Source: Crambe crambe
Lineage: Eukaryota; Porifera; Demospongiae; Poecilosclerida; Crambeidae
Reading direction: 5' to 3'
Length of the DNA: 64,000 bases
Assembly: GCA_963924555.1 (NCBI GenBank)
Contig: OZ004584.1
Coordinates: forward strand, 5,951,001 to 6,015,000
Shown: positions 1 through 62,805 of the stretch, in pieces
Layout of the letters: each line of letters begins with the position of its first letter
How positions within the stretch are numbered: the first letter of the stretch is position 1
Program-made: the position numbers and the translations under genes
Notes under the pieces: model-generated
Database searches by the model: none
What the model was told of the DNA's origin: nothing
What the model saw: the letters and a program-made list of their open reading frames with translations, nothing else

Positions 1-479
1 ACATAAATAGATCATACCTACAAAGCTATACAATGAAATATAGGATGTTTTTTTTTACAGGATTAGCTAAACTAAATGTGGTCAGACCTACTAACTGTTG
101 AGAATGTGTTACTATTGTCTTCTTTCTTGCATGATCACTATAACAATGTTGATCCATGCAATGTAAATGCACTATGCTGTGCTATCCTATGGATGCATAT
201 GCAGCAAAGGCTATATATTTTCAATGCTGTAGCTATTGGCCTGGAGTAATCATTGATAATGATATGGTGTAGAGCAAGCTAACTAGGTGGTCTCAACCAC
301 TGCAAGAATCTAGCTACGTAATGAGTATGAATGATGGCAATTGGTGTGTACCCACGAGACTTGCCATAACAAACCCTAGTACTAACAGTTTATGATTGTA
401 ATCAATTTCATTTTAATTGCAGATTGCACATATAATTTGAGAGTAGATTATCATTTCATTCGAGGCATCATCTTTGCAG
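1..479. other. Probable intron or 5' region of the ankyrin gene
   Basis: AT-rich, with stops in all frames. It ends in a plausible 3' splice site (CATCTTTGCAG). I cannot place an upstream exon in it. Confidence 0.5.
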
Positions 480-3400: not shown

Positions 3401-6400
3401 CCTGTGATGTACAGTTATCGAATAATTCTGGTGAAACTCCTTTTCGTCTTGCAATAAAAAGAGACGACCTTGAAATTATCAAATTTCTCATGACTTTTTG
3501 CAGATTAGATCCATATACACAGCCTGATAGGAAGGCTCTTCTAAAAATTAAGTCTCCAGAAATTCAGAAGATTTTTGATGAATATGCTGATCCCCTTCAC
3601 AAAGCTGTCATTATTGGAGATATGGAAAACGTCACATTTTACATTGAGAGGAAAAAGTGGAGTCCACTACTACAAGATAGACATGGAAATAACTTACTCC
3701 ACAATGCAGCAAAGTATGGTCAATTGGAAGTGGCCAAGTACTTAACAGGGAGTGGACTAGATAATGCAGAACAGGATAATTATCGAGTTTCGTGTGATCC
3801 ATCTATAAAGAATAAGTGTGGCCTAACAGCACAACAGATAGCATCACAGAGTGGTCATAAACATGTGGAGTCTTATCTTCTTCGTGCTACAACAAGTCTA
3901 ACTATTGCCAAAAAGTATGCTTTATCACCTTCTATCTGCATATTGGTGATAGGCAATTCTGGGTCAGGAAAATCCACTTTAGTCAAAGCTTTGAGCAAAG
4001 AAAAAAATCTTATTGGAAAAATCAAGAAGGTTAAAGGAGTTGTACCATTAACAGCTGGTATCATACCCACTACCCTCCAGAGTAAAGTGTTTGGAAGTGT
4101 CAGCATTTATGACTTTGCTGGACATGAAGAATACTATGCAAGTCATGAAATAATCCTTCAGCAAGCAACTCAACCACTCGTTCTTGTAGCAGTCGATATT
4201 TCACTACCTGCAACAGATATAAAGAAGCAGACATTATACTGGCTTTCCATATTATCCAATGCAGCTTCTATCAAGAAACATAAAACATTCCACTTGATAG
4301 TTGTGGGTAGTCATGCAGATCAAGTCTCTAGTGAAACAAATAACAGTGTACAACAGATTATGACTTCTGCTTTTGTAACATGTGAGACCATAAAATATCA
4401 TGGATTCATTCTCTGTGATTGTCGATATTCAGGATCTAGTGACATGAAGGAACTGCGGCAAAAGTTAAACAGTGTTTGTGTATCTATACGTCAGCATATC
4501 ACACGTACTGAAAGTGATTACTCTAACAGGTTATGTGCATCTTTAATGTACTACTTGCGAGAAAGCGTGTCTGATCAAGTTCCAACAATCACTGTAAGCA
4601 AGTTGTGTAACCTGATTAAGGAATTGAGGAGTCCAGGTCCAACTTTAGTTCAACTTGCTAATCTGAATTTATTGATTGATACTTGTGATACTCTATGCTC
4701 AAATGGACACCTTATCTTCTTGCCACATGAAAGAAACATGAAGAAAAGTGTGTTAGTATTGAATCAAAACATCATGCTTTCCAAGGTCCATGCAAGTCTC
4801 AAGTTGATAAAGCAAAACATAACAAACGATGTAGGAATGTTGGAAGCATCTCAACTTAAAGAAATTCTGTCTAAATCTTTGCGGAGTGCAATGCCACCGG
4901 ATTTAGCTATCAAATATCTGATTTTCACTCAATTTTGTACTGAAGTGGCTCCTGATCATCTCCTATCTGCTCCAGAAAATCTCAAGAAATCTGTTCACTA
5001 CTTCTTTCCAAACTTAGTTGATAATCCAAGGCCTTTGAATATGTGGAAAACAGAAGAAGAAAGTTACACACACTTGTACACATGGTGTTTAAAGTGTTCC
5101 AATCCTCACCACTTCTTTACCCCCAGGTTCCTCCACATTTTATTCATTCAACTATTGGAATATGAACGATATTCATTCAATCCTGTATATCCCATCTGGA
5201 AAAATGGCATCTTGTTAGTCCACAGCAATGCCACCAGATGTGTGATTGAGGTTACAGACCAGACTTCTCAGTTGTGCATAGCAATGCAGTGTGTAAAGGG
5301 TTATGAATATAACTTAGTGCAGCAACGATCCACCCTAATCTCCCTCATCAAATCTTTGAAAACAAAAGTCTGTCCATCAATTGAGCTTGAAGAATTCTTT
5401 TATCATCCTCAGAGATCATATCCTCCAGAGATCACAGCAGAAATACCAATGGCTGAAGTAGCTCACTCTGTCATTAAGGGTGAGCCTACCGTTGTAACTC
5501 ATGAAGACAGAAGAAATCCTCAACATGTTCTTCTTTCTGATCTCCTTCATTTCGATTCCTTTCACAAATTAAGAGAGTCAGTTCTTCAAGAAATTTATGC
5601 AAATACTATTGCATCAAATGTGAATGTTCCTGAGAGCACATTAAGAAATGTGTATGAAGCAGTCAAGGAGTGCGGGCAGTTAGCTGAGATGCTTCAAGGC
5701 CCTGCCCCAGCCACAGAGCACACTGCAATTACTTATCAACAACTCCATGACATATTGGCTAAATACTCCATATTCACCCATGGGAATCTTTATGTAAGAC
5801 TATAATTATAGTAGCAATCACACAGTAAGTTGATTCATCTCATGCATGATCTCTCCTTATAGGAAGCAGCTGGAATTGAACTACCAAAGGTCGAAACCAT
5901 CCAGGGGCCCCCAAATCTTCCAATCAATAGTGGTAAGTCAATTTACTGTTATACTGTCATGCCATGTAGCAGTTTTCATAATGAAAATTGAGTTGTTGTT
6001 TTTTGTTTTTTTTTTTGTTTTTGTTTTTATTTATTTGACAAATATTTTACAGCACAAAAATTTTATCTCACAAAATTTCCTGTTATACAGTATGATAATT
6101 AATTTTATTCCAGAGTATTTCAAGTCAAAAATGATACTAGCTTGTTATTATGCACAATTACCATTGTATTCATAACAGCATGGTGGTAAACATTATTATT
6201 AAACACCATTTGTTGTAGATCCTTTGTGCATTGAAGACCTTTATAGCATCAATGTCAAGGTGGCTGAAGTGACTAAGTGGAGGGAATTTGGGTCAGCTCT
6301 CAGGCTGAGAGACTACACCTTGGAACTAATCAGAATCCGTCATCTCCAAGATGCTCAGCATTGCTTGACTGAAGTACTAGCAGCCTTTTTGAAGGGGGAA

Positions 6401-7197
6401 GGACAATCGAACGAATCACCTCCAAACTGGAAGAAAGTGGTTGGTGCTCTCAAGTCTGTAAACATGAATGAATATGCTGAGCAACTCATACGACAATTAA
6501 CAGGTACGTAGTTGATCAGCAAAGATGAAGCATCCTAGCTGACTCTAATTTAGTTATATACAGTAAGCCAAGCAATGAAGTACTATCCCAATAATTATAT
6601 TGACTGCAGTTTCTGTAACAGAAAAATTAATTTCCTATTTACTTGCTAGTGTTGACTGGTTTTTTTCCTATAGATGTTAATTGTGATTCAAATGAAGCAT
6701 CAAAAGATTTTGCTTCAGTTAACAGTGATCTTATAGGTATGAATGTAGCTAGATCATGTGACCTTATAAGTGTTTATCTAGCTAGATCATGTGACCTTAT
6801 AAGTAAGCATATAGATAGTAATAAAGAATTATAGCTATAGTTATGGTAGCTGTTGAGTTAGGAACTCATTATTGCAGGAAGTGACTCCTTTATTGACGTG
6901 AAGAGATATGTTCAACCCCTGAGTCACAAGTGGTTCCACCTTGGTCTCTCCCTCGGCCTCCGCTACTCCACTCTCAAGAATATTGAGGCCTCCCATCACC
7001 ATGACGTTGGGGATCACATGACTGATATGCTTCAGACATGGCTGAGAGGAGTGGACCCGGATGTCACTGAAAGGGTAAGGGGTCCTCCCAGCTGGAGGTC
7101 CCTGGCCCAAGCCCTGGACTGTCCTCTGGTGCGTGAACACCAGGTGGCACTCAACATCAAGAGTGAACATGAAATCCCTGAAGAAATTCACCTTTAA
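480..7197 (+). CDS. Ankyrin-repeat / Roc-like GTPase / double death-domain protein (5' partial)
   Basis: Five exons: 480-5793, 5863-5932, 6219-6503, 6674-6736, 6878-7197, all with GT-AG borders and matching phases (about 2,015 residues). No ATG lies in frame near the 5' end, and an acceptor (TTTGCAG) ends at 479, so earlier exons probably lie left of the window. Residue numbers count from base 502. Ankyrin repeats (TPLHYA..G.LDVV) fill roughly 110-1130. A Roc/Ras-like GTPase follows: P-loop GNSGSGKST near 1151, DFAGHEE switch, and GSHAD in the place of the NKxD box. A COR-like region runs to about 1650. Exon 3 carries a death domain (KWREFGSALRL...NWKKVVGAL) and exon 5 a second (KWFHLGLSLGL...SWRSLAQAL). 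The order ankyrin-GTPase-death matches the C-terminal half of DAPK proteins; no kinase is in the window. A death- or immune-signalling role is inferred. Confidence 0.85.
1741..2580 (+). repeat. 306-bp tandem repeat within the ankyrin exon
   Basis: Three nearly identical 306-bp copies (102 codons, three ankyrin repeats each) start at 1741, 2047 and 2353, marked by ACTTATGGTAACACACCACT. The third copy diverges after about 2570. The unit keeps the reading frame and is far more alike at DNA level than other repeats of the same exon, so the expansion or conversion is recent. Confidence 0.9.
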
Positions 7198-25097: not shown

Positions 25098-40402
<15,305 letters not shown>

Positions 40403-41317: not shown

Positions 41318-42203
41318 TCAATTCTCTCTGATATTATAAATCAAGCCAGTTGCTAGTTTCGGCTGTTTTACAACCATTCGACTTTCTATTGCTGTCTTCA
41401 TGTTGACAAGAAGATTCTTGACTTCATTCACAATCCTTTCCATTTCTTTCTCCAATTTTTCTACCTCACTGAAGACAGTTTCTATCTTCATCGTTTTTAC
41501 AGCCACTTTCTGTTCCATCTGATTTTTGTCCATCATCATTTGCTGTTGCGTGAATTCATAGTTCTCAAATAGATTATGACATTTAACCAAAAGCTCCTCC
41601 ATTGAATCGCCAATATCCGATACTTCTGGGGAAAGGTACTCCTTTTTTTCGTTTATACGTATGCTCTTGATTTCTTGTACATCATTGAACTGCACAATCC
41701 AAGCTTCTTTTTTATCCTGGTTATCATAGTCTGTAAATGCCATTTGCTTCCAAGACTCGAAACAGGCAGTTAAAGCAGCATTCATCGGATTCTTAGTTTC
41801 TCTCTTAAATGATTTTAGAGCATTATCGACATCTAACCTCCCTGCAAGGATACGTTTGTTAAATATTTCAGCAATGCTGCTAGTAATCTCGTTAACTTCA
41901 TCCTCTTCACACTTCGTGAAAATCGCCTTTTGATAACCATCAGGAATATAATCAAAAGTCTTTATTGTACTTTGAGTTGTGGTGGCTCTAATGTCTGGAA
42001 GTTCTGGGACATGATCTGATTCATCCTCACTTTGACTTTGCCCACTTTGTGGTACATCATCATCATCATCATCAGCCACTTTTTGCTCAGGTGCTTCCTC
42101 CTCCTGGATGACAAGAAAGGGTAAGTGTATGTAATGCCTATAACTGCTAGCTTACCGCATTATCGTACCACCATCGACTTAGAGCATTGAAAATAGTGCC
42201 CAT
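41318..42203 (-). CDS. Putative N-myristoylated coiled-coil protein, paralogue 1
   Basis: Two exons: 42203-42156 and 42103-41318 (277 residues, phase-0 junction, GTAAGC donor, CCAG acceptor). Exon 1 encodes only MGTIFNALSRWWYDNA. Met-Gly with small and hydrophobic followers fits an N-myristoylation signal and recalls the ARF start. Exon 2 begins acidic (EEEAPEQ, a run of six Asp), then a mixed helical domain (FNKRILAGRLDVDNALKSFK, ACFESWKQMAF), and ends in a predicted coiled coil (VFSEVEKLEKEMERIVNEV). I do not recognise the family. A paralogue lies at 45038-46856 and a dead copy at 43400-43900. It is divergent with the membrane protein gene starting at 42341 (137 bp between start codons). 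Membrane-attached cytosolic location is inferred. Confidence 0.7.
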
Positions 42204-42340
42204 CACTCCTGCTTCACCTTTGAACCAGCATATGGGGTGTGGCCACGAATGTCATGCATGCATGACGCACGATAATAAAATCGGTAATTAATACGAGAGC
42301 TAGAGAGTGAGAAGATCGCCACTGAATTGAATCGACAACA
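42204..42340. promoter_or_regulatory. Divergent promoter between coiled-coil and membrane protein genes
   Basis: 137 bp between opposing start codons. It contains an ATGCATGCATGA palindromic core (ATGTCATGCATGCATGACGC) and ATAATAAAAT. No clear TATA placement for either gene. Confidence 0.5.
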
Positions 42341-43250
42341 ATGTATAGAATTCTACTAGCGATTTGGATATTGTATCAAAGCTGCAGTGCTAAACTGAGT
42401 AAGTATCACTATGGAGATGTCCTAGCCTGAAACCTGTAGGAAACTTGATAAGGAAATTCATAGGGCAATGTTTAACTACCGTGCTTGCTTGCATATCCTA
42501 CTAAGAATACACCGTATTTCCTTCAAGTTTCTCTTGGAAACGCAAGGGAAATCATATAGTGTATAAACTTTAGCTTAAAAAATTAATTACTGTATTTGTT
42601 GATGTTTTACAGTTGCCAAAAGAAATTTTATAAGTAGGCGAATCAACTTGCCTGAAAGTGAAGATGTGTATTTAGGATTTTCAATATATGAAGATAACAT
42701 AACGAGGAGGAATTTGAACTTGATGTATCATTATAGAATTGGATTTAACTCTACCAAACGTCAGGTATTACGATATCCTCACGAATCGGCACATGGTGTT
42801 CGCATAGTTGGCATTCTTAAAGATACAAATAATGGGCAATTTGGCAGTGAATTATTGATTATAAATATCAACAATTCTGGTAACTTCACATTCAACCATT
42901 TGGAAATTTTCCCCATAGTCTTCATTGAGAATAATGAAGGTATTCCTTTAATGCAACAGCTGTATCAAAATGACTTCTACATCATAAACTTCATGACTTC
43001 AAATTCCTCTTTCCCACTAACTCCAACAAATGAGAATGCAATAGCCGGAGTACATGGCAATGGATCACAGGCTCAGCCAACAACACATGCAAGCGAAACA
43101 CAGAGAACTGTTGATACAGCAAGTCAAAGACCCCCTGTATTATTAATTATTATACTATTAGGGGTTTTTGTTATCGTAGTCATTATTGCACTCTTTTCAC
43201 TTTTGCTTACTTTTGTAATTCTGAAAAGACATAAAACCCTCAGAAAGTAA
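42341..43250 (+). CDS. Small type I membrane protein, unknown family
   Basis: Two exons: 42341-42398 and 42613-43250 (231 residues, phase 1 junction). Exon 1 is a signal peptide (MYRILLAIWILYQSCSAK). The ectodomain, about 160 residues, has several N-glycosylation sequons (NIT, NST, NNS, NFT, NSS, NGS) and almost no cysteine after the signal peptide. A Thr/Ser/Gln-rich stalk precedes a strong membrane segment (VLLIIILLGVFVIVVIIALF). The tail is short and basic (LKRHKTLRK). I recognise no domain. It is divergent with the putative myristoylated coiled-coil gene on its left. Confidence 0.75.
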
Positions 43251-43399
43251 GATGAAGATCCTGACTGATGAACACTCTAGCTAAGCTTAAGTTAATTGCC
43301 ATACTAGAAGTTATTATGCTCAAACTAAGCGCATGCGCATATCATAACTCAGCGACTACTGCATAATGATATGTAGTGCCAGTGTGGGTATTTTGAAGC

Positions 43400-43900
43400 A
43401 CTTGTTTTACAACCATTCAATTTCCTATTGCTGTCTTAATGTTGACAAGAAGATTCTTAACTTCATTCACAATCCTTTCTCCAATTTTTCTACCTCAATC
43501 TTTCTGTTCCATCTGATTTTTGTCTAGTTGCATGAATTCGTAATTCTTAAACAGATCATGGCATTTATCCAAAAACTCCTTCATTGAACCAATACTTCTT
43601 GGGAAAGGTACTCCCTTTTTTTTTTTCGTATGATGCTGTTCATCATTGAACTGCACGATCCAAGCTTCTTTTTTATCCTGGTTATTGTATTTTGTAAAAC
43701 CTCCTATGTTTGCTTCAGTAATTAGTCTAGTCTTCACACTTTGTTTCTTGGTAGTCATCAGGAATGTCATCAAAAGTCTTTTATCGTACTTTGAGTGTCT
43801 GGGACATGGTCTGATTCGTCCTCACTTTGACTTTACCCATTTTCATCATTATGAGGTGGTTTTCAGCCACTTTTTGTTCAGGTGCTTCCTCCTGGCCTCC
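43400..43900 (-). pseudogene. Decayed copy of the coiled-coil gene
   Basis: Minus-strand similarity to exon 2 of the gene at 41318-42203 runs from the acidic start (GAGGAAGCACCTGA...CAAAAAGTGGCTGA) to the end (ATGGTTGTAAAACA). Recognisable stretches are NNQDKKEAWIVQFND, KCHDLFKNYEF and DKNQMEQK. Large internal deletions, a stop after EQKD and several frameshifts break the gene. No MG-type first exon is seen upstream. It is closer to paralogue 1 than to paralogue 2, so it arose by a more recent duplication. Confidence 0.85.
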
Positions 43901-44174
43901 TGGATGGTACCGGTATACCATGGTACCATGCACGTTCGCGCGCGCTAGCCAGTATCGATATCGCTCGCGCGCGCATATAACGCGTCATGCCCGGCGCACC
44001 GCGGTGGATTCCCTGGTAATTTCCCGGTGCCGGCCCCCCGGCCGCGGCCGGCCGACTCTATTTTTAACTAGCTATGCGCGCGCGGATCTGTGATCCGCGG
44101 AATATAAAAACGTTAGCTAGAGCTAAAGCATATCAAGCTCAGCTGAATGTTCTTAATATTCAAGTGAAGTCCTA
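43901..44174 (+). promoter_or_regulatory. CpG-dense promoter-like region with TATA box
   Basis: A ~200-bp island of extreme CpG density in otherwise AT-rich DNA (CGCGCGCGCATATAACGCG, CCGGCCGCGGCCGGCCG, palindromes such as GGTACC...GGTACC). TATAAAAA at 44103-44110 lies 65 bp before the start codon at 44175. This is consistent with an unmethylated promoter for the next gene. Confidence 0.5.
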
Positions 44175-44795
44175 ATGTACTTTCAAGCAATCTTCTTCGT
44201 TTGGGTGTGCATCTGCAGTGCCCGCCCCCTTCCCCTTCCCCAGAACGTGGACCAAGTGTATATTGACCACCACGAAATCTATGAACCAAAGAACTCAACT
44301 GAGCGTAAATTACTTGTGTACGAGACCTTATGCAACCTTAGTACTGCTGGAAACTATGCTCTCAACGTACATTCAATAACTTCGAATGGCACAACCAAAT
44401 TCAGTGTCAGAATGTACGACAGATTGAATTCAGGGAATGATACGAGCAGTGGCCTGAAGATTGATTCTGTTATTTCTCGGATAAGTCCTGGGTGTAGTAC
44501 CATAGTGACTCGAATTGATCTGTCTCACATCAATACTGAAATATATACTGTTGACCTCTTCTTAACCCACTTTCAATTTGGAGTGGGTGTGACAGATCAT
44601 ACTCAAGCAACACTCCATATTAAAATAGATGTTGGAAATGATCAAGAAGTAACTGATAAAGTTGAAACTGATTTCGAGGGTTCCGCCAGTGGAGGTTCCG
44701 CTGTCAATTCCACACCCAAAACAACCAGGTCTGCAAGTATGTACGTGATTGCAGCAGCGAGTGTCTTCTCAATTTTGGCTACAAGACTGATCTAG
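44175..44795 (+). CDS. Secreted or GPI-anchored surface protein, intronless
   Basis: 206 residues, one exon. A signal peptide (MYFQAIFFVWVCICSA) is followed by an ectodomain of about 165 residues with sequons (NST, NLS, NGT, NDT) and few cysteines, a Gly/Ser/Thr-rich linker (GSASGGSAVNSTPKTTRS), and a short hydrophobic end (MYVIAAASVFSILATRLI) without a cytosolic tail. That pattern suggests GPI anchoring. No known domain is recognised and no clear sequence similarity to the membrane protein at 42341-43250, though overall layout and position (next to a coiled-coil gene copy) are alike. Confidence 0.7.
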   Translation: MYFQAIFFVWVCICSARPLPLPQNVDQVYIDHHEIYEPKNSTERKLLVYETLCNLSTAGNYALNVHSITSNGTTKFSVRMYDRLNSGNDTSSGLKIDSVISRISPGCSTIVTRIDLSHINTEIYTVDLFLTHFQFGVGVTDHTQATLHIKIDVGNDQEVTDKVETDFEGSASGGSAVNSTPKTTRSASMYVIAAASVFSILATRLI

Positions 44796-45037
44796 CTAGC
44801 AAAAAGAAAAATTGCTCTTGGAAGTGAAGTCGATTTGCCACAGACTTTGAAGAACTATCAGACAGCTATATACCTAGGTAAACCAGCAGAAAGCCTAGCA
44901 GTATAGCTGTATTAAATTTTATAATCATCACAGTCATCTTTTTAGAATAGTGTTTTTGTTAAAGAGATTATTATATAAGTGAATGAACAGTGATATGCGC
45001 TATAAAAATGACTTTATCAAAAATAATTATGTCATAG
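44796..45037. other. Convergent 3' region
   Basis: AT-rich gap between the GPI-type gene and coiled-coil paralogue 2, which point at each other. Nothing else seen. Confidence 0.5.
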
Positions 45038-46856
45038 CTATCTTATGAGTAATTTAAGTCCAGTGGCACTCTCGATGTTTTTAACAACCATGTGTTTCGC
45101 TACAGCAATTTTAATGTTCTCAAGAAGGCCATCAACTTCATCAACAATCTTGTCCATTGCAGTGTTCATGGCTTCCATTTCACTGAAGACAGCTTCGATC
45201 TTCCTTGTGCGCACAGTGATTTTCTCACACATTTGTGCCTTTTCCATCTCCATTTGGTCCTTTGTAAAGTTATGATTGTTAAATAGAGTATGACAGTTGT
45301 CCAAAAGTGAATTCATCGAGTTATCAACATTTAGTGCTTCGTGTGAGAGATAATCTCTGTGTAGATTCACTTGCATACGCTTGATCTGTTGTGATTCGTT
45401 GAATTCGACATTCCAAGCCTTTTGCTCATCTCTGTCATCAGTAAAGGCCATTTTTTTCCAGGCCTCCAGACAAGCAGTCAACGGTGCATCTTCAGGATTA
45501 TTCGTCCTTCTCTTGAACTCCTTCAGAGCATCATCAACAGACTTTCTCCCATTAATGATACGTTCTTGGTACAACCGGTAGACGTCACTGGAAACTTGAT
45601 TCACTTCTTCATTTTCGCTCTGTGTAAAAGCAGGACGCTGGTCTTCCTCAGCAACATATTTGAATTGCTTGATCACTGATGGAGTGGTAGGGGGGTCATT
45701 TTGTTCCTGGGGTTCCATTGGACATGGACGTGGTTCTTCTTGTTGCTACAAAAAATATAATAATATGACAGTCCCATGCAAGTAGAAACCAAATATGATT
45801 CTTGGCCACTTTTCCATACTTTAGCTGTCCATAACTCGTGACTACTAGTGACCTAGGTCTTGAAATTTGCTATAGAACACATGACAGAAGTTTGGGACAA
45901 TTTTATCTAAGCATGTTTTAGAAACTGCCAATTCGATTTATGTAAGCTACTTATAAAAACAGTTCGATTTCTACAGTACCATGGGACTGTCACCTTATGT
46001 TCAAGGTACAAAAGAATTTGAACGTTTTCTTATTGGGGGACTTCAAGTGTTCTGTTCAAGATAACACACTGGCAGTGATGTAGCTACCTACAAGTCTCAT
46101 TCATTTGGAGATTGATCATAGGTAGTCTCACCACAAGCCACAAAGGACAGCTGACATATAGCTAAGCAGGTTGCAAAAGAAGCGCACGATTTCTGCGGCA
46201 ATTTGTTTATATGGCATTGTGCTGCAAGGCAACAAAAGCTTAAACTTAAGAAAAAGTCATCCACTTAAGGTGGTGTTTTTGTTTCTCTGCCTACTGCCCA
46301 AGATTTCTCGGATAACAGAACCAAAAATTTGACTAGACCCATAATTTCTTCCACACACCCAATAATATCACAAAGAAAGGAATCACAAGGCAGGCAAGGG
46401 GACCTATGATAGGTTGTTTCCCAACACACACACAAAAACAAACAAAAAAAGACAACAAAAGGTGTGGTAGCTACGTACCAGCCATAGGCCAGTGCCTCCA
46501 GCCATGCATGTTTCGGGATACTTAGCCAAGCCCCATCCAGATTCAATGACATAAAGACAGCTAATTGAATCCACAATTCCCTTGATGTGGGTTCAACCTG
46601 ATTAAGAAAAAATGTATGTGCAAAAAGATACAACTCAACTGGTTATGGTGTGTTGAACAATTGCAGGGTTTCTGCAGTGCCAATTCACTTTACAAGAGAG
46701 GGTGACATGTGTGGACAGAACTAAAGCCGGGATTAAAGCTCAGCCACCCTCTGAGTTTGAACTGTTAGCTACAGTAGCTAACTAAAGCTGATGGATGCGT
46801 AGCTAAGTCTGATGTACTTGACTTACCCTCCTAAAAAGAGAAAGAAGTGGGCCCAT
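45038..46856 (-). CDS. Putative N-myristoylated coiled-coil protein, paralogue 2
   Basis: Two exons: 46856-46827 (MGPLLSLFRR) and 45745-45038, joined across a 1,081-bp intron in phase 0 (GTAAGT donor, TTTTTGTAG acceptor); 245 residues. The first exon is a better myristoylation signal than in paralogue 1: Gly2, Ser6, then two Arg. The body aligns with paralogue 1 along its length (FTQSENEEVNQVSSDVY, INGRKSVDDALKEFKRRT, TACLEAWKKMAFTD, VFSEMEAMNTAMDKIVDEV, SATGL). The Asp run of paralogue 1 is replaced by QQEEPRPCP. If the exon 1 assignment is wrong, the ATG at 45718 would serve. An ORF inside the intron (46265-46633) is not assigned. Confidence 0.68.
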
Positions 46857-47428
46857 ACTACATAATCCTCGAGTAAGAGTTGATCTTTGATCATCGATTA
46901 AAACTTCCAGACACGCCCTATAATATAGGCCTAGGCCTAGGCGCAGCTAATTAATTACTATAACATGCATGACCTTATAAGGCCGCCCAGCATCAATAAC
47001 AACAATAATATTAAAATGACCCATAAAAGAAAGAGTAAGACATGCTAGATTAATAAAACACACACACACAAATAAAAAAAAAATAGCATAAAAATATAAT
47101 AGCAAGTTATAACACAGTAATAAGTTAAAAACTATACGTATTAAAAACGTACGTATGTACGTAACTATACGTATTAAAAACGTACGTATGTACGTAACTA
47201 TACGTACGTATTAAAAACGTACGTATGTACGTAACTATACGTATTAAAAACGTACGTATGTACGTAAGTTGATCGTTGATAAACTTCCAGACACGCCCTA
47301 TATAGGCCTAGGCGCAGCTAATTAATTACTATAACATGCATGACCTTATAAGGCCTCCCAGCATCAATAACAACAATAATATTAAAATGACCCATAAAAG
47401 AAAGAGTACACTGCTAGATTAATAAAAC
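46857..47428. repeat. Duplicated segment, first copy and junction minisatellite
   Basis: A ~260-bp segment (about 46877-47136; CTTCCAGACACGCCCTATA, AGGCGCAGCTAATTAATTAC, CAGTAATAAGTTAAAAACTA) is repeated from 47266. The second copy is split at 47428 by a transposon and resumes at 49597-49695. Between the copies, 47131-47267, lie four 33-bp units containing ACTATACGTATTAAAAACGT and ACGTATGTACGTA. Confidence 0.9.
47131..47267. repeat. 33-bp ACGTAC-rich minisatellite
   Basis: Four tandem units, one with an extra TACG. Each contains the self-complementary ACGTACGTATGTACGT, able to form cruciforms. Confidence 0.9.
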
Positions 47429-49711: not shown

Positions 49712-52700
49712 TCATACTGTAAAATCACAAGAAGCATCGACTATATCATGCATTTGAGTGCTGATTTCCACAGCCTCTTCAGCTTCAGATAAATGGAGGC
49801 ACTCAGATGGGACTTGATCATGTGGTTTATATCTATTCGGGTACCTAGACTTCAAGTAGTAGTCTTTGCCTTCAAGTGTTCGTGCCAGTTCACTTAAACC
49901 AATCATGGCTGTATCGACTTGTTCCAATGCCCTGGCGTGACCAATCAAGCTGTGATGCTGGAGGGCATCTGGGTGGAGACCGTTTTTAGCATACATCCCC
50001 GCCTTTAACGTCTTCTCTGCAACTTGGTGAGACAAGAAACACACGAGGGCACACAGAGTGTCATCAAATTTCGCTAATTCGTAATTAGCCCTCATTGAAC
50101 GCACATCACACTTTGCTGTCTTCATCCACACCTCAGCCTTGTAAGGATCAGGTGAAACTGTGATTGTACTGTTTCCACTGTCACCTTGGGCGCCATGTCC
50201 GCTCCTCCAACTTTGTTCATTGTCACGCCCTCTTCTGTGTTGTCGAATAATCTCTTCCCAAACATGAGTCCAGTCATCATATCTTCCAGAACTGCTGGAC
50301 TTAGTGTTAGTCCAATTTTCACTAGGATCTTGAATCTCGAGTCCTTCCTTCATCCGTCGAATTTGTATTTCAAGATACTGGAAAGCCTTTGTAGCAAATG
50401 GATGCTTATTTTTGTCCGGGTGCCACTTCAAGTACATAGCCTTTTGTGCTTTCCTCTTTTCGTCTTCATCTCGGATTCTGCTGATCCGTATGAGCTCCTG
50501 GTAAATCCTCTGCAAAATATCTTTCAACTTTTCATCTTTGATTGTGTCCCACCATCTGACAATTTCACTATCAGGATCGAAAAGTTCCAGTTCTTTTATG
50601 TTGCTGCTTCTTGCATCCTCCTTTATGCGAAGGATCTTGTGGAGATAAATGACAGACACCGTCTTTTCACAGTCGTCCTCTTCCCCTTCCTTCAGTCTAA
50701 TCACATACCTGTCCAGCTCTTCATCTTCATCTTCATCAACTGTATCTTTTCTTACCCTGTACTCCACACGGGCAAATATAAACCGGTTTTCCCGTCTTTC
50801 ATACCCGACTAGTTCTTGAGGTTTGAAATTGTTATAAATATCTGCATGCAAGCGATGGTGGAATTCATCGGGTATTGGTTCTCCAAGTTTGGGATTTAGA
50901 CGGTAATCAAATTTTCTCTCAAATTTCATGTCCGAAGCTTTTATTCCATGTTCATTTAAGATGGTTTTGATGTCATCTGGTGATTGAATTTTCAGAAGTG
51001 TAGTCAAGTTTTTTTCAGGTTCCTTGAGTTCAGAGGCAGCTACATTGCTCATCGTAAGGACTTCAGTGAGTATGGATTTAGTAAGCAATTCAAGAAGGTT
51101 GAAACTAAAAGCACTAGCATTTGAGTTTATATAAAGTATGAGTTGGTTACTCTCATCTCTGCAGATTTTGAAATCCATGTGGGCAGAACCAATTTTTCTT
51201 GGAGGGCTGGTCAAGTTCAAATATATGTTCACTTTCAGTTCTGGCACACTATAAATCTTTACCGATTCAACAAATTCCTTTAATGAGGCAGAAAATCGAA
51301 TGCTCGCCCCTTCATTATCATGTTTCTTCAACAAACGTTGTGCTGCTTCAGAGAAATTACTGATTCGGAAAGTGTTTTCTAGATTTTTAGCAAATCCTGA
51401 AAGTTCACTCTCTGGTTCACAAATGCTATCAATTTTGTCGGTACAGCAACTAGAGAGAGCTTTTGGACGAAAAGACTTGGGAATCTTTTCAATTAAGTCG
51501 ATCATTCTGAAGCCATATTCTTCAATTTCGTCACTCTTATGACAGAGAAGAGACATCATGGAATACTTGGAAACTGAGGAGAAGTCAAATGTCTCATTTT
51601 TGTAACACCCTAGCTCATCATAAAGGAGATTAGTACTCTTAAGCAGGCAATGATCACAGCCTGGGAGATAGTGATCACCCTCATAAGCATCATCAGTGAT
51701 AGCTGTGTTCAGACACTGGTGGAGCAGTTTGAAAAGTGTCTTCACAGATTTAACAGTGTTAGGGTCAAGGGGCATCTTAAAATGGGAGTGAATTAACTCG
51801 AATGCATGGAAAATATTCCCCATCGTTATGGTATGATTGACTCCAACCTTTGCTAAAGTACCAATTAATGAATAGAGTTCCTTTGGCAGGACAATAAGAC
51901 AAGGGTGGAGTGAGATAGCGAACTCTGGTGGCATTAAAACAACAACTTGTAAAGGATGGACTAGAACGGGATACGATAAATCACCAGAGAAATCTTTACT
52001 CACAGAAATGAATGGAACAGAACTTAACTTGGAAGCTAGCAGATCTGAACCATCATCTGAAGATAGAAAGCCAATATTTTCCTTAATTACGGTGTACAAA
52101 TCTGTGTAATCTTGGCTATATTTTTCAGTCTCCCTTTTTGGTTTCGGTTTAGGTTTGATGCAATCTTGACTGTATTTTTCGAATAGTTTGACGTTGGAGA
52201 ATCGTGATGCTGATAAGTTACGCACATTCTCGATAACTTGTGAAATGGAAGGTGTTACACATATCCCCAATCTTTTGAAAAGGTTTTGTTCTTTTTCCAT
52301 TCTGTCTGAATGTGTGAGGTTAGGAGGATGAGAAACCCAAGGAAATCTCACCACAGGCAACACAGTCCAAATCAAAGACGCATACTCATCACTTGCACTG
52401 TTTCTTGATGAGACCAGACCCACTTTCTTCTTCTTTTGGTGAATGATATTAACTCCATTGGTGCTGGGTGGTACTATCCAATCTAAATTGGCTGGTGTTT
52501 TTGGGGCGATAAAGGGAATTTGACTCAAGGCCTGCAAAAACTCATCATCCGAGTGCCAGTCATAAGTCTTGAACAATAGCTCCAGGAGGACAGATGATGC
52601 TTTTCTGATTTCGTCATGCTTCCCTTCAGAAATTTGGACACAAAAATTGGTATAGTCTTTCTTGGATGGCTTCGTTTGGAGACCTATCTTTATTAAGAAG

Positions 52701-55700
52701 CTTATCCACTCAGAGAGAGGGATGTCTTGGGGAGTGGGAGGGAAGGTATACTTGTCAGGAAATGCTTTAAATACAGGAACTCGAGGATCACAAAACATAT
52801 GTGCAGGTTGCAATTGAGCATCTTTGTCCTTTAATATCGCTAGATTCTTGAGTCTGTATATAAATCTGTTTCCAAGAACCTGTGAACCTTTATCTGTCTC
52901 CATCTTGCTATACTCTTCAGCTTTTGGAAATAATTCCATTTTAATGTACTTAAGATGACTGATTCGATCTTTGTCACTCAGTAGATGGAAGTAGGGGAAG
53001 ATAAAATCAACATAGAAGGTCAGAAGATCAACTGATTGGATACCAAGAATAGCAGCATTAGTCAGTATTGACCACGGACCGTTTTCAGGGAGAAAAATTG
53101 CTGGTGTCTGTGATATCAGCATCTTGGTTCCATCCATGCAGATGAGATCAGGCCAGAAATATGTCCCATTATCTGCCAAGCTACAGTACCTCCCATCTAT
53201 GTTCTTGAATAGCGGCAAGTGTTTGATATAGCGGAGACTGATTTGATCATGTGCAAAGTGAATTTCACTGAAATAAGAGAAGAGCTTTTTAACATGAGCA
53301 TCCACATCTCTGTCTGCAAGGAGAGAGTCTAGTCCCCTGTCATCATGAAGATGGCGCAAGTTAGTGAGAATATTTTGGGGGTTTGAGAAATTGGGGCAAA
53401 ATTCTCTAGCCTTGAGCACCATCCAGTGCACCACTGGCATTCCATGTTTTCTGAGAATCTCAAAAACGTCTGATTTGAGTGCATCTTCTTGATGAACCCA
53501 TTCATTTGTTGCAGGTTTACGAGGAGGTGTGATAGGCATTAGATACTTCAAATCAGGATCGTACCTGAACAACTCATTGTTGTTAGAGAGAATCAAAGCC
53601 CACTCCTGCAAGATGAATTCAGTATGTTGTTGGAACACCTTATCTTCACGTAAACACTTCCATAATATCTTCAGTAACCCCTCAATATCAATATGTGTAG
53701 GGGCATTTGTGACACGATTTGTACGCAAGGATTTTTTTAATGTCCTGCTCAAAATTTTTTGCACCAGCTCCCAATTTTCCAGAGATGGTTGCACAAAGTA
53801 ATTGCGATCAAGTTTGAGCTCCAATAGCGCTGAATGCAGAAACTTGCCCAGCACTTTTTTAAAAATTTGTGAGTATTCCGATGAAATGACTTTATCCTTC
53901 TCACTGAACAGTTGCACTTGTTCATCAGCAGTTAACAGCAATGGATAACCAAACGGAGAGGAGGGAAAAATGAAACTTGAGTAAGTTTCTTCTTTATTTT
54001 CAGAAACGTTTTTCTCTATCACATATTTTATAAAGTTCTTAATAGATTCAACATTCCTGAAGGATGTATCTGAGATGCGAATTGGAAAGGATTGAGTGGG
54101 ACTTATTATCTGATGAAAATGTTGAGTGTAATATTGGTAAACTACACCTGGTAGAGCCTGGGGGATGTTAACTTCCACAGAGTCAAAGTGTTCTTTGATC
54201 CACATAGGTGCTGCAGAAAGTACAATACCAATCCGTTTCAAAATGGGAGGAAGAGACTGGGTTTCTTCAGATGTCGTCCAGAAATGGACCTGTTTTGATG
54301 CATCATCTAGTACAGGATGCCACTCCATGATGTATTCGGGTTTCTTTTGTGGGGGTTGCTGAGGAGACTTTTCAGCAACTACCTCATTTTTGTTGACCAC
54401 AACTAGAACTCGGCACCTTCCAGCTCCAAGGTTTTTGTAAGTAATCCTTGCCAGATCTTTCATTTCATTCTCAGGACAGTGATGTGAATCAATCCACTTA
54501 GGGAAAAAGCTATAATATCTTTCAATATCATTTGATATATCTCTAGGCTTAGTATAGGTACTTCTTTTGATAATAGAATCTTGGATTCTTATTAAGAATT
54601 TTGCATAAGATGCTCCAAGTGCTTCTATCAACCTGTTGTTCCATTTCTTCTTGTCATCGGGAGTTGAAGTATCACGAGACTGCCACAGAGTACTGCGTGA
54701 TGAAGAATCAAGAATGAAGTTGCCATTTACATGAACTGGAAGCTTGGATTCATTAGGGAGAGGGAGAAAGCAGAAAATCTTAGGAGTGAATGAACTTCCT
54801 TTGATCTGAGCTGCTAATCCGTGCATAGGCTTGATGTATGAGAGGTATTCCCAGTGCTGGGAAGGGTTGTTGATGTCACCCACCCCTTGCTGTACCAACC
54901 ACTGTTCTTCCTCTTTATTAGGGACTTTCTCTACCAGCTTCAGCTTATAATCCACCAAAAGTGGTACTTTGTCACCCCTTTCAGTGAATGTAGCAGCTTC
55001 TTCATGCAATTTCAATCGCATGTTTTTAACTTCATCACTAAGCTCACACATGTAATGGTGGGTGTTCATCATCACAGTGGGTCCCACTTTACCATCTGCT
55101 ATGATAAAAAATTTCAAATCGGTGACATGTTTGAGGAATATGAGAGCTTCCTTCATCTTTGGAGCCCATTCCTTCAACTCCTCTTCCATTCTCCATGCTG
55201 ATAATGGTGGCAAGCTTTTATTCTCCTTCTCGACTAGTTCAGATCTCTTCACTAATTCAGCAGTCGAACGCAACGGGAACCTGAACAGTGTACCACTCTC
55301 TCTGATCTCATTGGGACAGTCAAGGCCTTCACGCAAGTAAGCTGTCTTGAGATCTGATAAATTTGACCAGAATTTCTCGTCCACATTGTCAAGTCTCCTT
55401 CCAGGTTTCATTGCAGTTGCCCCAGGCATGTAGCGACAGTGAGGGTCTAGAACACACAGTGTTTTGCCATTGGTAAAGAAACTTGGACAGTCAGTGAGGT
55501 GGTACACCACATTAAAGCCTATTCCATACTGTCCAATGCTCTCTGCCTTTGACCTTTTGCTTCCGAGGCCTAACTTTTGGATGCCTTCCATGTCATCTTC
55601 ATTGAATCCCTTGTCATTCCAGACAAGCAGAGCTGGTCCTTGCAAATCTTTCCATTCGTCTGTAAAGACCCTTTTTGTTCCATGTGTCCTTTTATCCAAA

Positions 55701-58700
55701 ATGAAATACAGTTTAGTTGCCTTTGCATCATCAGCATTTTGCAGTAATTCCTTGAGCACAGTTTCATCGTGAGTGTAAGTATCAAGGATATTTCTGATTC
55801 TTTGAGTCAATTCCTCCCGCTGACCAAATGGAACACCATCAAAATCATCACGTGAGGACTTGTACATATCCAGAGCTCTAGACCTTATGGACTTCACACC
55901 AAGCTTCAAGGCTACTGGATTATGTATCTTGTAGTGTATGAAATAATGCTCTTCTTCCAAGTTGCACCATAGGACATCTTTCAAGGCCAAATGCTTCACA
56001 TTTCGCATGCACAAATTCTCATCTGGCAAGAAGCACATTTCCAGCTGCTCTGCATTTAGCATTCCATCTTCCCCAATACTTTCTGCTAAAGCTAGGGCTA
56101 TATCTGCTATGCTCTTTTCTTCTCTACGGTTTAACTCTTTAACATTCCTCATCTTGTTTAGCACCTGTAAGATCACATCAGTTGAGAAGTCTTCCTTGAG
56201 ATTCAAGAAATACTTCAATTTTTCCTTTCCATGCTTCAGCAAGGAGGGCAAGGCATAGAGGTGTGGCCCATCATGCTTCCAATTCAGAGCTATTTGCTCA
56301 GGATGTATAAATTCCCTTCCATTCCAGAGAAGTCCGGGACGTGAAAGAAGCCTTTTGAGTGATCTATTAGTATTTCCTTTGGAGATCCTCTCTTCAAAAT
56401 GTTTATAAATAGCATCACAAGCTTTACTGATCCAAGAGGTGAAAAAATCAGATGAGTTGGGGACACTATTATACACATGTATGATGTGTTCAAGGTGCTT
56501 CAGTATGTCATCGATGCTTGGGGTGTCTGCTAATCTCAAAGCAGAAATGACTGAAGATAAAATATAACCACACCCTCCACTTGAAGGTAGTTCATTTGAA
56601 ATGATGGAAACTGTGGAACCAATCAAGTTTATATTCAATCTATCAATCAATAATTGTGAACTACTGAGCAAAGTTTTATTATTTCCTGCCCATTTTAACT
56701 CCCTCGGATAACCTTTAGGCCTTTGAAGAACTGGAAGAAAGGCGATTTTGGTTAATTCATTAGCCTCTGGTGGCAAGGATTCCGAGGACCCTGAATGTTT
56801 TAAGTTGGTGTCAATGCAACTGATCAACAACTTAGTCCTCATCAGAGCCTTTTCTCTGTTTGATGCATAGAGCTCCTTCACGGTGTTGGCTCTTTCGATC
56901 ACCATGTGCCAAGGAAGCTGAGATGATATGGCTCCAAGCCTGAGAAGAGTCACACGAACTATATCTTTATTGAAACTCTCCACTGCAAACATGCCATCCT
57001 CAGGCTCATACAAGGTCTTGAAATCACTCACTTGACTATCAATGATTTCATTGCACTTTTTGAGAACTTGGCCTCTGGGTGTGCACGGTATACAGGGATT
57101 ACTCTTTATCACTGCTTCAAGTTGGGATGAAGGCCGAACTTCAAGTTGGGATGAAAGCCGAATGGCATAAGTAGTGATCAAACTCAGGAGAACATTGTTT
57201 CTCATATCAACAAAAGCAGAAAACTTTTCTATATTCCTGAAAAAAATATTAATGAACTCATTTTCATTGACAGTGGATTGTTTGACTTCGCCATGGAGAT
57301 GACAGTGATACCTCTCAGGTAGACAGATCAGTGGATATTTCAAGGTCTCCATGACATGCTTAATGTCTGACACTTGCTCCGGCCGCAAGATATCGGTAGA
57401 GAGAATCTTTGAACTGCTGATCGACCGCCATTCCTTAATGCACTTGGAATAGCATAAGTCCCCACTGCATATGAATCCATAAAGATGAGGAAGAAAATAA
57501 TCCCAGGGATTATGAGTCTTCAGTGATTCCTCTAAAGGCCAAAACGTATGAAACTTGTAATCATCAACTGATATCTTCCCTTCCTGACAGAGATCACGCA
57601 ATGTTGTTAGTAGCTTGTGGTAAGATAAAGGAATGCTCTCTTCCATCAGACGCACGTTGAACTGAGATTCGTCACCCTTGCAGACACTGTCTGAATAGTG
57701 GATGCCTCTTCGATCATTCATCACGGCAAAGTTGGCACTGACATGTACAGGAAGACCAGTTTCCAAGTGTAGAGGCAGAAAACAGAATACTTCCCCTCGC
57801 ACTTCCTTTGGCCGATAAGTGAAGGTGTGGGCACTGGATAGCTTCTCTAATGAACAAGCAACAGCACTTACCTGGCTATTTTTAACGTCACTACTCTCTG
57901 CAACCAAATAAACATGCTCAACAGTTGGTGACCTGATTTCTGACACGTCCAGACTCACTATTTCTGCACTTGTTGTGTCATTCATGTGGTACATATGAAT
58001 GTGTCTCAAGGGACTCTGATTAACAATGCTCTTTAATACTGTTAAGAGACGACTAGGACCTTTCAAGTCATCATCCATATGACTGAAAGTTATGGACTTC
58101 AAGTGCTTCATGAAAAGTAGCAGCTTTGGGCCTGCCTCTTTCACGTCAGATATCAACTTGTCCACTTGTATCTTCCCATATTTCATGCCACTGATGTCGC
58201 TGGAATGAGTGCGAAATGGTAGACGAAACAAAGTTCCCTTATAAGGGACATTGGGTTTGAAGTTGAAGAGGCCTTTGTAAGGATCCATTTGGGACGAATA
58301 TTGAACACATTCATCAGTAAAACGCAACTTCTTCCCCGGTTTCATAGGATTCGTCACTGCATCCTTCAGGTACTCAAGTGTTGGGTCAAATATGTACAGT
58401 AAATCTCTGCTAATGAAGGAAGGCACATCAGTTATGTGGTAGACTGAACAAAAACCAACTCCAAATTTTCCAATCTTCAAAGGCTGGTCTTGCTTTGTGG
58501 CACCTGCCAATTTCTGAATATTTGCAAAATCTTCGTCTGAAAAAGTTCGATTATTCTGGACAATCAGTGCTGGACCGTGACATTTGGCCATCCCTTCAAA
58601 TATCAGATTGTCTTGACTGTGTTGGCGGGCATCGTAGCAAATATTGACCTCACTGGCTCCAGCATCATCAGCATTTTGTAGGAGCTCTTTGATGATGGTT

Positions 58701-61700
58701 AATCCATCTTTATAATCTCTGAGGATGTTTTTCAGCCGTTTCACTAGAGGTTCACTCTGACCAACATCTTCAAAAGCATCTTCTGAAATATTGAGCTCTT
58801 TGCTGAGAGGAGTCAATCCTAAACAATGAGCAAGATGCATGTAGTCTTTATGAACAAATTTCAAGGACTTATTTTTGGACTTTTGAAAGTTCTTCAAGTA
58901 CTTCAGGTCAGTGTACACCACATCACCAACTGTGACTAACTCAGGATAAGATGATGTCGACTCAATTGGAACACAAAGGTGCATCAAGTCAGTGACGTTT
59001 TTCTTCCCGTGATCAGTAACACAGTTAAGTATGTTGGAAACCATTTTCCATACCTGATCACAACTGACCGAATGGCTACCATCTTTAATTTTGTTCAGCA
59101 CAGTAACTAGCAGCTGATCAGTAATTTTCCTGTGAGCTCCGAATTTGATGAAAAGTGTGGAGAACTTGCAGTCTTCTGAAAGCACATGGAGAAAAGGTGC
59201 GAGGCTATGAGTGAAATTTGGATGGCGCTCAAATGCTACACTCTGAGGACTTACAAATATACAGGGATTTTTCAGCCATATCCAGTTGGACTTATACAAA
59301 TTGAAACTTGATTTCTCAAGCAATATTTGTAGATTAGCCTTGAAAAAGTTATATGTTTCGTTTGCTAGGTCATCCAGTGGAACTCCTCCTAGCTCATCTT
59401 TGTGCTTGATAATCTCCATTAAGTGAGACATTACATGTTCGACAGGAGGTTCAGGACAGAGAGCAGAGCAGAGCTCAGATGGACAGTTAACTATGTACAT
59501 CTGTGAACCCACAATATTTGGTAAAGTATTGATAGTTTTATCACTACATGGAAGTACCGAAGAATTCATTGAGGTCAGGTGAGATGTGCACTTTGCACCC
59601 TTCCATGGAAGACATGTTGGATAGTTCTCGGAAGATGGGGAGGTCTCTATTGGTAGAATGCTCTTTTCAGATGCCAGCTCTACAATGGCTTGTTTTAAGG
59701 TTTTTGATCTCCAATATACACTAATGTTATTGGACAGAAAACCTTCATAAGAGTTTAGACATGTGAAGACTGTTTTTGCTCTGATCATAGTATTTGCACT
59801 GGTTTCTGCTGGACTGTAATTCTGGGAAATTTCTGTGAGAATATCATAAAGATCTTGTCCATTGACAGACTTCTTCAAACCACATGTACGCAGGTGCAAC
59901 AAGTAGTCTTCTCTATCGAATGGGGGCAAAGGAAATACTTCCTTCCCACTGTAGAGTTGCCTGAGGACACTCTTTGATGGATCATAGAGATCCTGGGGAC
60001 TCTTGCGAGAACTGCACTCTGAGCTAAAAGGTATGAAAGGAAGCATGCTCAACTCTTGGATGAAATCAGGTGATCTTAAGGTAGAAAATACGTTAAAGAT
60101 CCCCTGCATTAGTGGACTAAGCTTTGACAAGGGCTCAAATATGTCACTGTTGATCAGAGGAAAGATAAAATCAAGTATGAATCTTTCATTTGAATCAGGT
60201 AAGCAGACGATGTTGCTTATTTGGAGAAGTGTGCGGTGATTTGAAGATTGTGACAGAACGATCAAGTTCGAAGGCAAGTTGTAGTGACTAATACAGAAAC
60301 CACGAGGCTCCAAAATCACTTTTTTCCCCTGAAAAGATGACACAACTAATGATACAGGAACTTGTTCACCAAGAGGAAGAAATATGCTTAGATATTCTAC
60401 AGCTTCTTGATGTCTTGAAAGATCAGTATGGTGACGAGCCAAAAAAGTCTGAAATGCAGCTGCCTCTGCTTTGGAGAAAGGCACACTTCTAATCTCTGAG
60501 ATGTACGAGTGAGCCTCTTCTAGAGCTGTAAGCACCCCATCAGGAGTGAGGGGATTCAAGTAGCTCATTAAATTTCTGTGTTTCAAGTATGGTACACGTT
60601 CACATAGGGTGTAATTAATACCAAGTTTTGAGAATATGTTCTGATAAACTGCAGGGATGGTATCAAATCTCTGGACACAAACCACACCAGAATTCGATTT
60701 CAGTCTCATGACACTCAAATTAGTTTCAGATGCAATAGGAACTATGAAGAGATCTTCAAAAAGACTAAGATCGTTATGTTTCACCCAGTTCCAGAAGATT
60801 TCGAACCAGGTTTTTGGAAAATTGGATACATTCAATGAATTTTTCACATTCTTTTTCCACTCTTGGGGAAAAATTAAAGGCAAGAGTTCAGCAACTCCGC
60901 ATGCATCAAGTATTTTCAACTGAGTTTTACCCGAGGAAGCAACTTTCTTCAACTTACTGTGAAGTGATGGTCGATCTGAAAGATTTACCAGCCTGTGCTC
61001 AGCATTAGGAAGGAGTTTTTGCGGACATTCATCAGTACAAACATAACAAGAGTTAGACTGATTGGCAAAATACGCTGACTTGAAACTATTAAAAGAACCG
61101 TTGGCAAGAGGCAATAATTGAAGATCCGCTAGTTTTGAGTAATTTTCATCAGAAAGACAATACTCCAGCAGATCTAGCTTCTTTGGTGCACTTACCCTCA
61201 TATATGACTCCTTATTAGCTTTGATAGCACATCTAGTTAAATCTGGGGTTAAAGTTTGCACCTCTTGAGGATGAACTAAACGCAGTGCATGCCACATATT
61301 GGAAGGGATATCAACCAGATCAAATTCACAAGAAGTAATGACTTCCTTTACACTCTCTGTGATACTCTCATCTTCGGGAATGAAAGTAGCATTGCGTACT
61401 CTAACCCACTTCTTCTTGATTGACCACAAGCAGGCATGCTCAAACAGACTAGAGTAGAGAGGATGAAGGAGACCTCCCCAATTAGTGCTACTGATCTCAA
61501 TGACATCAGGCAAAGCAGCATAAAACTCCTCAGCTGTTAGGCGACTCAAAGCTGCTTTGAGGAGGAGGACATAGCACGAAGGAAACACTTTCTCAACCAA
61601 AATCTTATTCCAATCTGCAGACAGGTCATTTCTCCTTTCACGCCCTGGCCACTTCAGGGTCCTGCGATCATCATTCAAGCTGAAAGTACCATTGACATGA

Positions 61701-62805
61701 ACAGGAAGATATGTGCATGTTTCACAAGGCATGGGAAGAAAGCAGAATATCCTACCATTTTCATCATCTCTTGGTCGTTCTAATTCAAGAGCTGTGCCCA
61801 CCCAAGGTAAGACATTGATTTCTTTAGCCATTTTTACGACATTGTAATCTTCAGACTCAACAAGGCTTGAGATAAGCCAGCGACTGCTTCCACTTGAGGA
61901 TCCCATGTGGTCTGTAACCTTCACAGTTGCTATAATGATACTTTCAAAGGTTTTGTGAGATTGCAGGTTAGAATGTGAATCGTGAATTCTGTCACAAAAG
62001 GAAGCTCGTTCAGCTCTCAAGGAAAGAGGAGCTGCCACACTCTCTCCAGATATTCCAATCTTTAGTTTCAGCGTATGCCTCCCACTTCCACCAATTTCGT
62101 ATACTTCAATTGTTTCCACTGATCTCAAAAAGAGTAAGAGTAATTTTGCTTCTTCCCTCAGGGCGTTTATCAATTCCAGCACCTTCCTTGGGTCGTACAA
62201 ATTCTTTGAAAGATTGGATTCTCTGGTCCTCAAAGGAAAACGAAACAGAGTCTTTGGGTAGCCAGAGTCGGAAAATCGTTGAGAGCTACTGAATCCAGCA
62301 ATGCCATCAAAGGGGGCTAGATGATTTGGGAAATCGCGCTGCATCACACTCAGCTTCTTTGAGTTACCACTCTTTCCACTCCATATTCTTTCTTGAGGGT
62401 CAAGGAAACCTACCTTATCTCCACTGATGATCATTGGGAGATCTGTTTAAAAACAAAGGAGGAAGCAAGTAAAAACCTCGTACCATTTAGTCATAGCTGC
62501 ATCTTTATACAGTATAGCATGAAAGTTTGAATTATCAGAATTGTAATTGAGCGCTGTGTAGACCAGCTAGGGCTTCATGTCAATCTGTCTGGCTCTTCTT
62601 TTTTGTTTTTGTTGTTTTATTTTGTTGTGTAAGTTAATCATTGATTCCTTGTATTGTTTATACTTTTATAACCACAACATGCGCTAAGGGTCATAAAGCA
62701 AGAATTGTGCTTGTTACAAACTATGGTCAGACACTCACCACTCTTTAACTCTATAATTTTGAGGCTATTTTTTGTTGGGACTCTGGAGGTCATCAGTCTA
62801 TCCAT
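49712..62805 (-). CDS. SACS: Sacsin-like giant chaperone protein
   Basis: Two exons: 62805-62739 (22 codons from an ATG preceded by an in-frame TAA) and 62442-49712, a single 12.7-kb exon; about 4,265 residues (human sacsin 4,579). The first sacsin repeat begins only after its ATPase core (LPMIISGDKVGFLDPQERIW). Two further repeats are complete: N-box KELLQNADDAGASEV near 1245 with GKFGVGFCSVYHITD, and KELLQNADDAKATKL near 2228 with GQYGIGFNVVYHLTD (GHKL ATPase). A J domain with WHPDKN lies near 4003, and a HEPN domain spans about 4095-4235 to the C-terminus. No N-terminal ubiquitin-like domain is seen. Sacsin is a cytosolic co-chaperone linked to Hsp70, mitochondria and intermediate filaments. 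If more exons lie beyond 64000, the N-terminus could be longer. Confidence 0.88.

Follow-up and report, generated by a model that had tools for sequence, protein, structure and literature searches.

A small helical protein family with a Met-Gly mini-exon beside two surface-protein genes in the sponge Crambe crambe

A 64,000-nucleotide (nt) stretch of the genome of the sponge Crambe crambe (positions 5,951,001 to 6,015,000 of contig C6, in an assembly of 143.1 Mb and 119 contigs; this whole stretch is termed the window) contains copies of a helical, coiled-coil gene interspersed with two genes for candidate surface proteins, an arrangement that an earlier, sequence-only reading took for a receptor and its cytosolic partner, repeatedly duplicated as a unit. 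The explanation that we favor, as a fairly probable one, is that the helical genes encode short cytosolic proteins that would be lipid tethered and scaffold-like and that the surface genes are independent neighbors in a compact genome, not co-duplicated partners. Correcting the appealing receptor/partner reading leaves a family that has no Pfam assignment, carries a Met-Gly (MG) mini-exon, and includes one member that is clearly SH4-like.

The helical family and its Met-Gly first exon

The window holds two intact helical genes, A and C (Table 1), with products of 277 and 245 amino acids (aa) in total, respectively, in which 105 of 218 aligned residues are identical (48%; E value of 1e-72), bearing out the earlier description of a single minus-strand family with two intact members. 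Their codon usage scores above that of all 108 of the background open reading frames (ORFs) used for comparison. Over 216 codons, the LWL85 method gives a nonsynonymous divergence (dN) of 0.36, a synonymous divergence (dS) of 1.47, and a dN/dS ratio of ~0.24, values that suggest purifying selection despite a high dS that comes from LWL85 alone, NG86 having returned no usable dS. Each gene has a tiny separate first exon (48 nt in A and 30 nt in C), as had also been proposed; these exons are read from the DNA with GT-AG borders in phase 0, and the intron of gene C, likewise in phase 0 with GT...AG ends, extends for about 1.1 kb.

Two further copies are dead. Copy B, the middle one, repeats exon 2 of A in two blocks (A 41364-41737 and 41930-42110, within a repeat that spans 41364-42110 in A and 43403-43906 in B), and its aligned part holds two TGA codons as well as gaps, so its earlier classification as a dead copy holds. 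The repeat stops at the exon-2 acceptor (A 42110); B has neither an exon 1 nor a recognizable equivalent of the promoter side of A, and no MG exon was found upstream of it with either a GTRAG or a GTRA[GT] donor pattern. Between B and surface gene 2 lies a GC-rich, locally palindromic stretch (43906-44120, with CGCGCGCG arms), which matched itself alone in a DNA search of the genome that skipped common words.

Copy D is situated past the window end (C6:6018899-6019577, in four pieces with changing frames) and duplicates C at 84% DNA identity (902 columns), C 44887-45749 corresponding to D 67718-68587 in window numbering. Its exon 1 reads MGPLLSFFRR and is followed by the same GTAAGT donor as in C. 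As read from their DNA, the two intact genes (A and C) and the two dead copies (B and D) form a small tandem family in which copies have arisen and been lost. Just upstream of gene C there is also a tandem duplication (46887-47059 and 47269-47428; 90%), whose halves flank a 33-bp ACGT-rich repeat array.

A distant relative resides on contig C20. With A as the query, a protein search of the genome reached one such locus (E value of 0.127; 26% identity), and in the reciprocal search with the C20 protein, A was the sole other genome match up to an E value of 10 among the best candidates scored (E value of 0.0455). In shuffle tests, the C20 protein had a z score of 12.5 with A and of 8.9 with C, and none of the 1,000 shuffles in either test scored as high. 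The first exon of the relative is a 48-nt ORF, MGCLKSKTTDNEGLLE, with a GTAATC donor and a phase-0 intron of 59 nt that ends in an AG acceptor, and the 16-codon first exon and the two-exon, phase-0 layout are common to A and C20. Codon usage of its exon 2 is equaled or exceeded by 4 of the 108 background ORFs, and the gene is located ~130 nt downstream of a same-strand aminopeptidase-like gene (translation read by eye).

When both strands of 94 kb were scanned for phase-0 ORFs of 24 to 60 nt that start with ATGGG and end at GTRAG, four were recovered: those of A, C, and D and one at 37093. Between the introns of C and D, there is an alignable block at exon 1 (81% over 121 columns) and, apart from it, one 25-nt stretch (E value of 0.003), and the remaining intron alignments are chance-level pieces of at most 14 nt. 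Given the scan results and a conservation between C and D that lies mainly in the exon-1 block, the MG exon is very probably real, and the pattern across loci argues well for a membrane-anchoring first exon as a trait of the family. Since D keeps its MG exon and C20 has a phase-0 exon of 16 codons, a membrane-tethered helical family is likely.

The remaining hit of the scan (window 37093-37052, minus strand) reads MGGENSKRNCQAKQ, followed by GTAAGT, and resembles a good acylation N terminus; it was considered as a further exon of the family, but no downstream exon was recognized, and we take it as background.

Several observations weigh against this interpretation, some of them bearing on the exon and others on its acylation. 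With donors relaxed to GTRA[GT], the same scan returns eight ORFs in 94 kb, five of them unrelated and the other three those of A, C, and D; elsewhere, it returns two at the locus searched on contig C20 (L023), one of which is C20 exon 1, and one at locus L024. Exon 1 of C20 was itself spotted by eye, and its GTAATC donor, which falls outside the GTRAG pattern, fits only the relaxed one. Splicing of the MG exon to exon 2 at A, C, D, and C20 is predicted from phase and borders in the DNA. The AlphaFold model of C exon 2, built on a two-row alignment, has a mean predicted local distance difference test (pLDDT) score of 47.3, at which helix content alone is readable (low-confidence helices are predicted at residues 42-80, 84-100, 105-132, and 135-218).

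Myristoylation of the mini-exon N terminus is less certain than the exon itself. A PROSITE-like myristoylation pattern, G-{EDRKHPFYW}-x2-[STAGCN]-{P}, fits two of the four N termini (A and C20), Pro3 excluding C and D. The N-myristoylation pattern MGxxxS/T, as it appears in the portion of PMC8196677 drawn on here, fits three of four (C, D, and C20), A having N at position 6; both patterns are satisfied by C20 only. The ascription of an N-myristoylation signal to A and C therefore does not stand as it was made, A failing MGxxxS/T and C having Pro3. In the portions of the literature consulted on proline at position 3 of substrates of N-myristoyltransferase (NMT), that of PMC7048800 included, we found no usable rule.

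In the mechanism that we propose, the mini-exon N terminus would anchor the protein to the cytosolic face of a membrane by myristate. In C20, whose MGCLKSK N terminus is the probable ancestral form of the family, myristate on Gly2 may be supplemented by palmitate on Cys3 and by basic residues, and anchoring in C and D would perhaps proceed through hydrophobic and basic residues. The linker, which is acidic in A, may be flexible and extend the reach of the protein; the helical part and the long coil at its C terminus could self-associate or oligomerize, or hold partners, in the manner of a scaffold or adaptor.

The earlier reading recognized none of these families, and neither do Pfam and PDB sequence searches. 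Exon 2 of A and C, a fragment of B, surface protein 2, and surface protein 1 minus its first exon yielded nothing above the curated Pfam cutoffs, the best score below them being that of ERM_helical against A (E value of 0.0046); C20 exon 2 likewise yielded nothing above cutoff; and PDB sequence searches with an A+C profile, both surface proteins, and C20 exon 2 gave nothing significant (best E value, 0.059). There were no relatives among viral contigs, either with C as the query or with a three-row alignment (400 pattern matches, 0 confirmed), and none among prokaryote genome contigs (51 pattern matches, 0 confirmed); neither collection is one of animal genomes, and these results carry no information on other sponges. 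Judged by title and abstract opening, no paper plainly about the present locus was found.

The surface genes and their place beside the family

Of the two plus-strand surface proteins described earlier, what stands are long ORFs whose products are hydrophobic at the start and again in a C-terminal segment; the signal peptides, the transmembrane segment, and the C-terminal anchor are a by-eye reading. No ORF of at least 206 aa, as in both surface genes, appeared in 300 first-order randomizations of the 8.5-kb region. In codon usage, the two ORFs are unremarkable (24/108 and 11/108 background ORFs score as high). A single-sequence AlphaFold model of surface protein 2 (mean pLDDT of 36.7) was too poor for a fold search, and a cadherin-like identity for this protein, suggested by a C-terminal strand motif noted by eye, was dropped, with no support from Pfam, the PDB sequence search, or the model. 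The intron of surface gene 1 contains (at 42401-42572) a short repeat resembling a miniature inverted-repeat transposable element, with at least 57 other pieces on many contigs when the best 40 of 193 candidates were scored.

Searches of the 143-Mb genome with the two surface proteins were run exon by exon with the best candidates scored, so that strongly diverged copies may escape. No second copy of surface gene 2 was found in them, its protein matching itself alone up to an E value of 1. Neither was one found of surface gene 1, which matched itself and, weakly, sites on contigs C16 (E value of 0.04) and C12 (E value of 0.95); we take both as chance matches, that on C16 extending into the transmembrane part of an apparent immunoglobulin (Ig)/tyrosine-kinase receptor gene (by eye). 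The fast divergence once ascribed to the ectodomains has no support, as there is no second copy of either gene with which to compare them.

Protein kinship between surface genes 1 and 2 themselves is doubtful. DNA self-comparison detected no similarity between the genes or their upstream regions, and neither protein recovers the other in the genome search. Their ectodomains share a weak local match (18/61 residues identical; E value of 0.016 as a single comparison; 1 of 1,000 shuffles as high) that depends on the matrix used. Among 5,000 shuffles, 14 scored as high with BLOSUM62, 34 with BLOSUM50, 41 with BLOSUM45, and 992 with PAM250, and among 5,000 windowed shuffles, the respective numbers were 18, 19, 29, and 1,088. 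The match is non-collinear, starting at residue 45 of one ectodomain and residue 23 of the other, and an intron is present in surface gene 1 and absent from surface gene 2.

The pairing of helical and surface genes recurs less than had been thought. Among five family loci, A is intact and head to head with surface gene 1, the dead B lies beside surface gene 2, and the regions upstream of C, D, and C20 showed no surface-gene-like ORF (ORF lists inspected by eye, from which a many-intron gene could escape). A head-to-head surface gene therefore accompanies one of three intact copies, A only. Of the two cases in which a surface gene was said to start opposite a coiled-coil copy, that of A holds, its start codon lying 137 bp from that of surface gene 1, but that of B does not, its match to A ending at the exon-2 acceptor; and the notion of a repeated pairing with preserved adjacency is not supported at C, D, and C20.

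The alternative that survives best, although we regard it as unlikely, limits co-regulation to A and surface gene 1, through a shared bidirectional promoter and with no physical partnership. The short distance between their start codons speaks for it, and in the portion of PMC4773876 drawn on here, the sponge Amphimedon has a median intergenic distance of 587 bp and almost one third of its genes appear to use bidirectional promoters; against it, the arrangement is not seen at the other copies. If the present genome is similarly compact, one 137-bp divergent pair needs no special explanation. Co-regulation of this close divergent pair is possible, which would tell against wholly independent neighbors.

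We consider it highly unlikely that the locus holds a receptor/cytosolic-partner unit, in which the helical protein would partner a divergent surface protein, the unit having been duplicated and the ectodomains having diverged fast. In its favor are the divergent orientation of A relative to surface gene 1, the dead B facing surface gene 2, the weak ectodomain similarity, and signal peptides that both start with MY and finish with CSA (by eye). Had A and surface gene 1 given rise to B and surface gene 2 by duplication, however, the surface genes should be ~70% similar, as are A and the decaying B, and they have no DNA similarity. Neither datable duplication carries a surface gene, contrary to the claim that the pair was duplicated as a unit: similarity between A and B runs only as far as the acceptor, and the edge of the C-D repeat lies 91 bp beyond the stop codon of surface gene 2, short of that gene. 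The lack of second surface-gene copies, of such a neighbor at C, D, and C20, of collinearity in the ectodomain match, and of an intron in surface gene 2 points the same way. An older joint duplication might in principle be masked if A and B underwent gene conversion afterward. On this evidence, a receptor/partner unit duplicated together is not supported, and the surface genes are probably unrelated close neighbors of the helical family.

A more elaborate version, which we hold to be very improbable, would make the locus a module for recognition in an early-branching animal, with A as a lipid-anchored coiled-coil adaptor and surface protein 1 as a type I receptor under one bidirectional promoter, and with surface gene 2 as an old, diverged sibling whose partner, B, is dead. 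Scarcely credible, finally, is a chance reading of the MG exon, with translation of the helical proteins beginning within exon 2 to give soluble products: in C, an in-frame Met of exon 2 (MEPQEQND) precedes the conserved core, and D also has such a Met, but A and C20 have none there and so need an upstream start, phase-0 MG exons occur at all four loci, and the exon-1 block is conserved between C and D where the intron body is not.

Features and surroundings

Table 1. Helical-family loci and surface genes (window numbering unless a contig or locus is named)
Feature	Position	Strand	Description
Gene A exon 1	42156-42203	minus	48 nt, MGTIFNALSRWWYDNA, phase 0, donor GTAAGC
Gene A intron	42104-42155	minus	52 nt, GT...AG
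Gene A exon 2	41318-42103	minus	261 aa + stop; acidic linker followed by a helical domain/coiled coil
A to surface gene 1 spacer	42204-42340		137 bp between start codons; candidate for a possible bidirectional promoter
Surface gene 1 exon 1	42341-42398	plus	Signal-peptide-like MYRILLAIWILYQSCSAKL, then phase-1 intron
Surface gene 1 exon 2	42613-43250	plus	Ectodomain, one transmembrane-like segment, short basic tail
Dead copy B	43403-43906	minus	Two blocks similar to A exon 2, 70-71% nt, frame broken
Surface gene 2	44175-44795	plus	Signal-peptide-like start, ectodomain, hydrophobic C terminus (glycosylphosphatidylinositol [GPI]-like or short anchor); one open frame
Gene C exon 2	45038-45745	minus	235 aa + stop
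Gene C exon 1	46827-46856	minus	30 nt, MGPLLSLFRR, phase 0, donor GTAAGT
Copy D	67718-68587 and 69294-69413 (L011 3718-4587, 5294-5413)		Duplicate of C, frame broken, exon 1 kept
C20 relative	C20:2650683-2651530 (L023 4183-5030)	minus	MGCLKSK mini-exon + long exon

Elsewhere in the window, an ankyrin-Roc ORF is followed by a weak death-domain ORF just under the Pfam cutoff (436-7194), and a 306-bp tandem repeat array (1645-2623) falls inside the ankyrin-Roc ORF. Between helical copies C and D, Pfam identifies a sacsin/HEPN gene in a single ORF of 4,244 aa (49715-62446), and sacsin-like sequence (by eye) flanks D on either side past the window end (L011 1110-1403 and 6000-10000).

Comparison with known systems

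Divergent receptor/adaptor gene pairs occur in recognition loci, and A and surface gene 1 are like them in lying close together and pointing apart. Unlike such pairs, however, this one is unrepeated, with no second surface copies found and no co-duplication. The top PDB match of the A+C profile is Caveolae-associated protein 1 (cavin), which aligns with the C-terminal coil only (E value of 0.059); the match is not significant and is of the kind expected from coiled-coil composition.

A further resemblance is to SH4 N termini, which combine myristoylation and palmitoylation sites with positively charged residues, according to the portion of PMC4075076 drawn on here. The N terminus of C20 is like those of Src-family kinases and other doubly acylated proteins in its Gly2, Cys3, Ser6, basic residues, and separate first exon, whereas A, C, and D keep Gly2 and lack Cys3, with A also lacking Ser6. 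Unlike in Src-family kinases, exon 2 of A, C, and C20 has no kinase, SH2, or SH3 match above the Pfam cutoffs. If acylation is confirmed, the family would be a non-kinase user of an SH4-type anchor in Crambe crambe and would show how such an anchor changes within a tandem cluster undergoing birth and death, Cys3 being absent from A, C, and D and Pro3 present in C and D.

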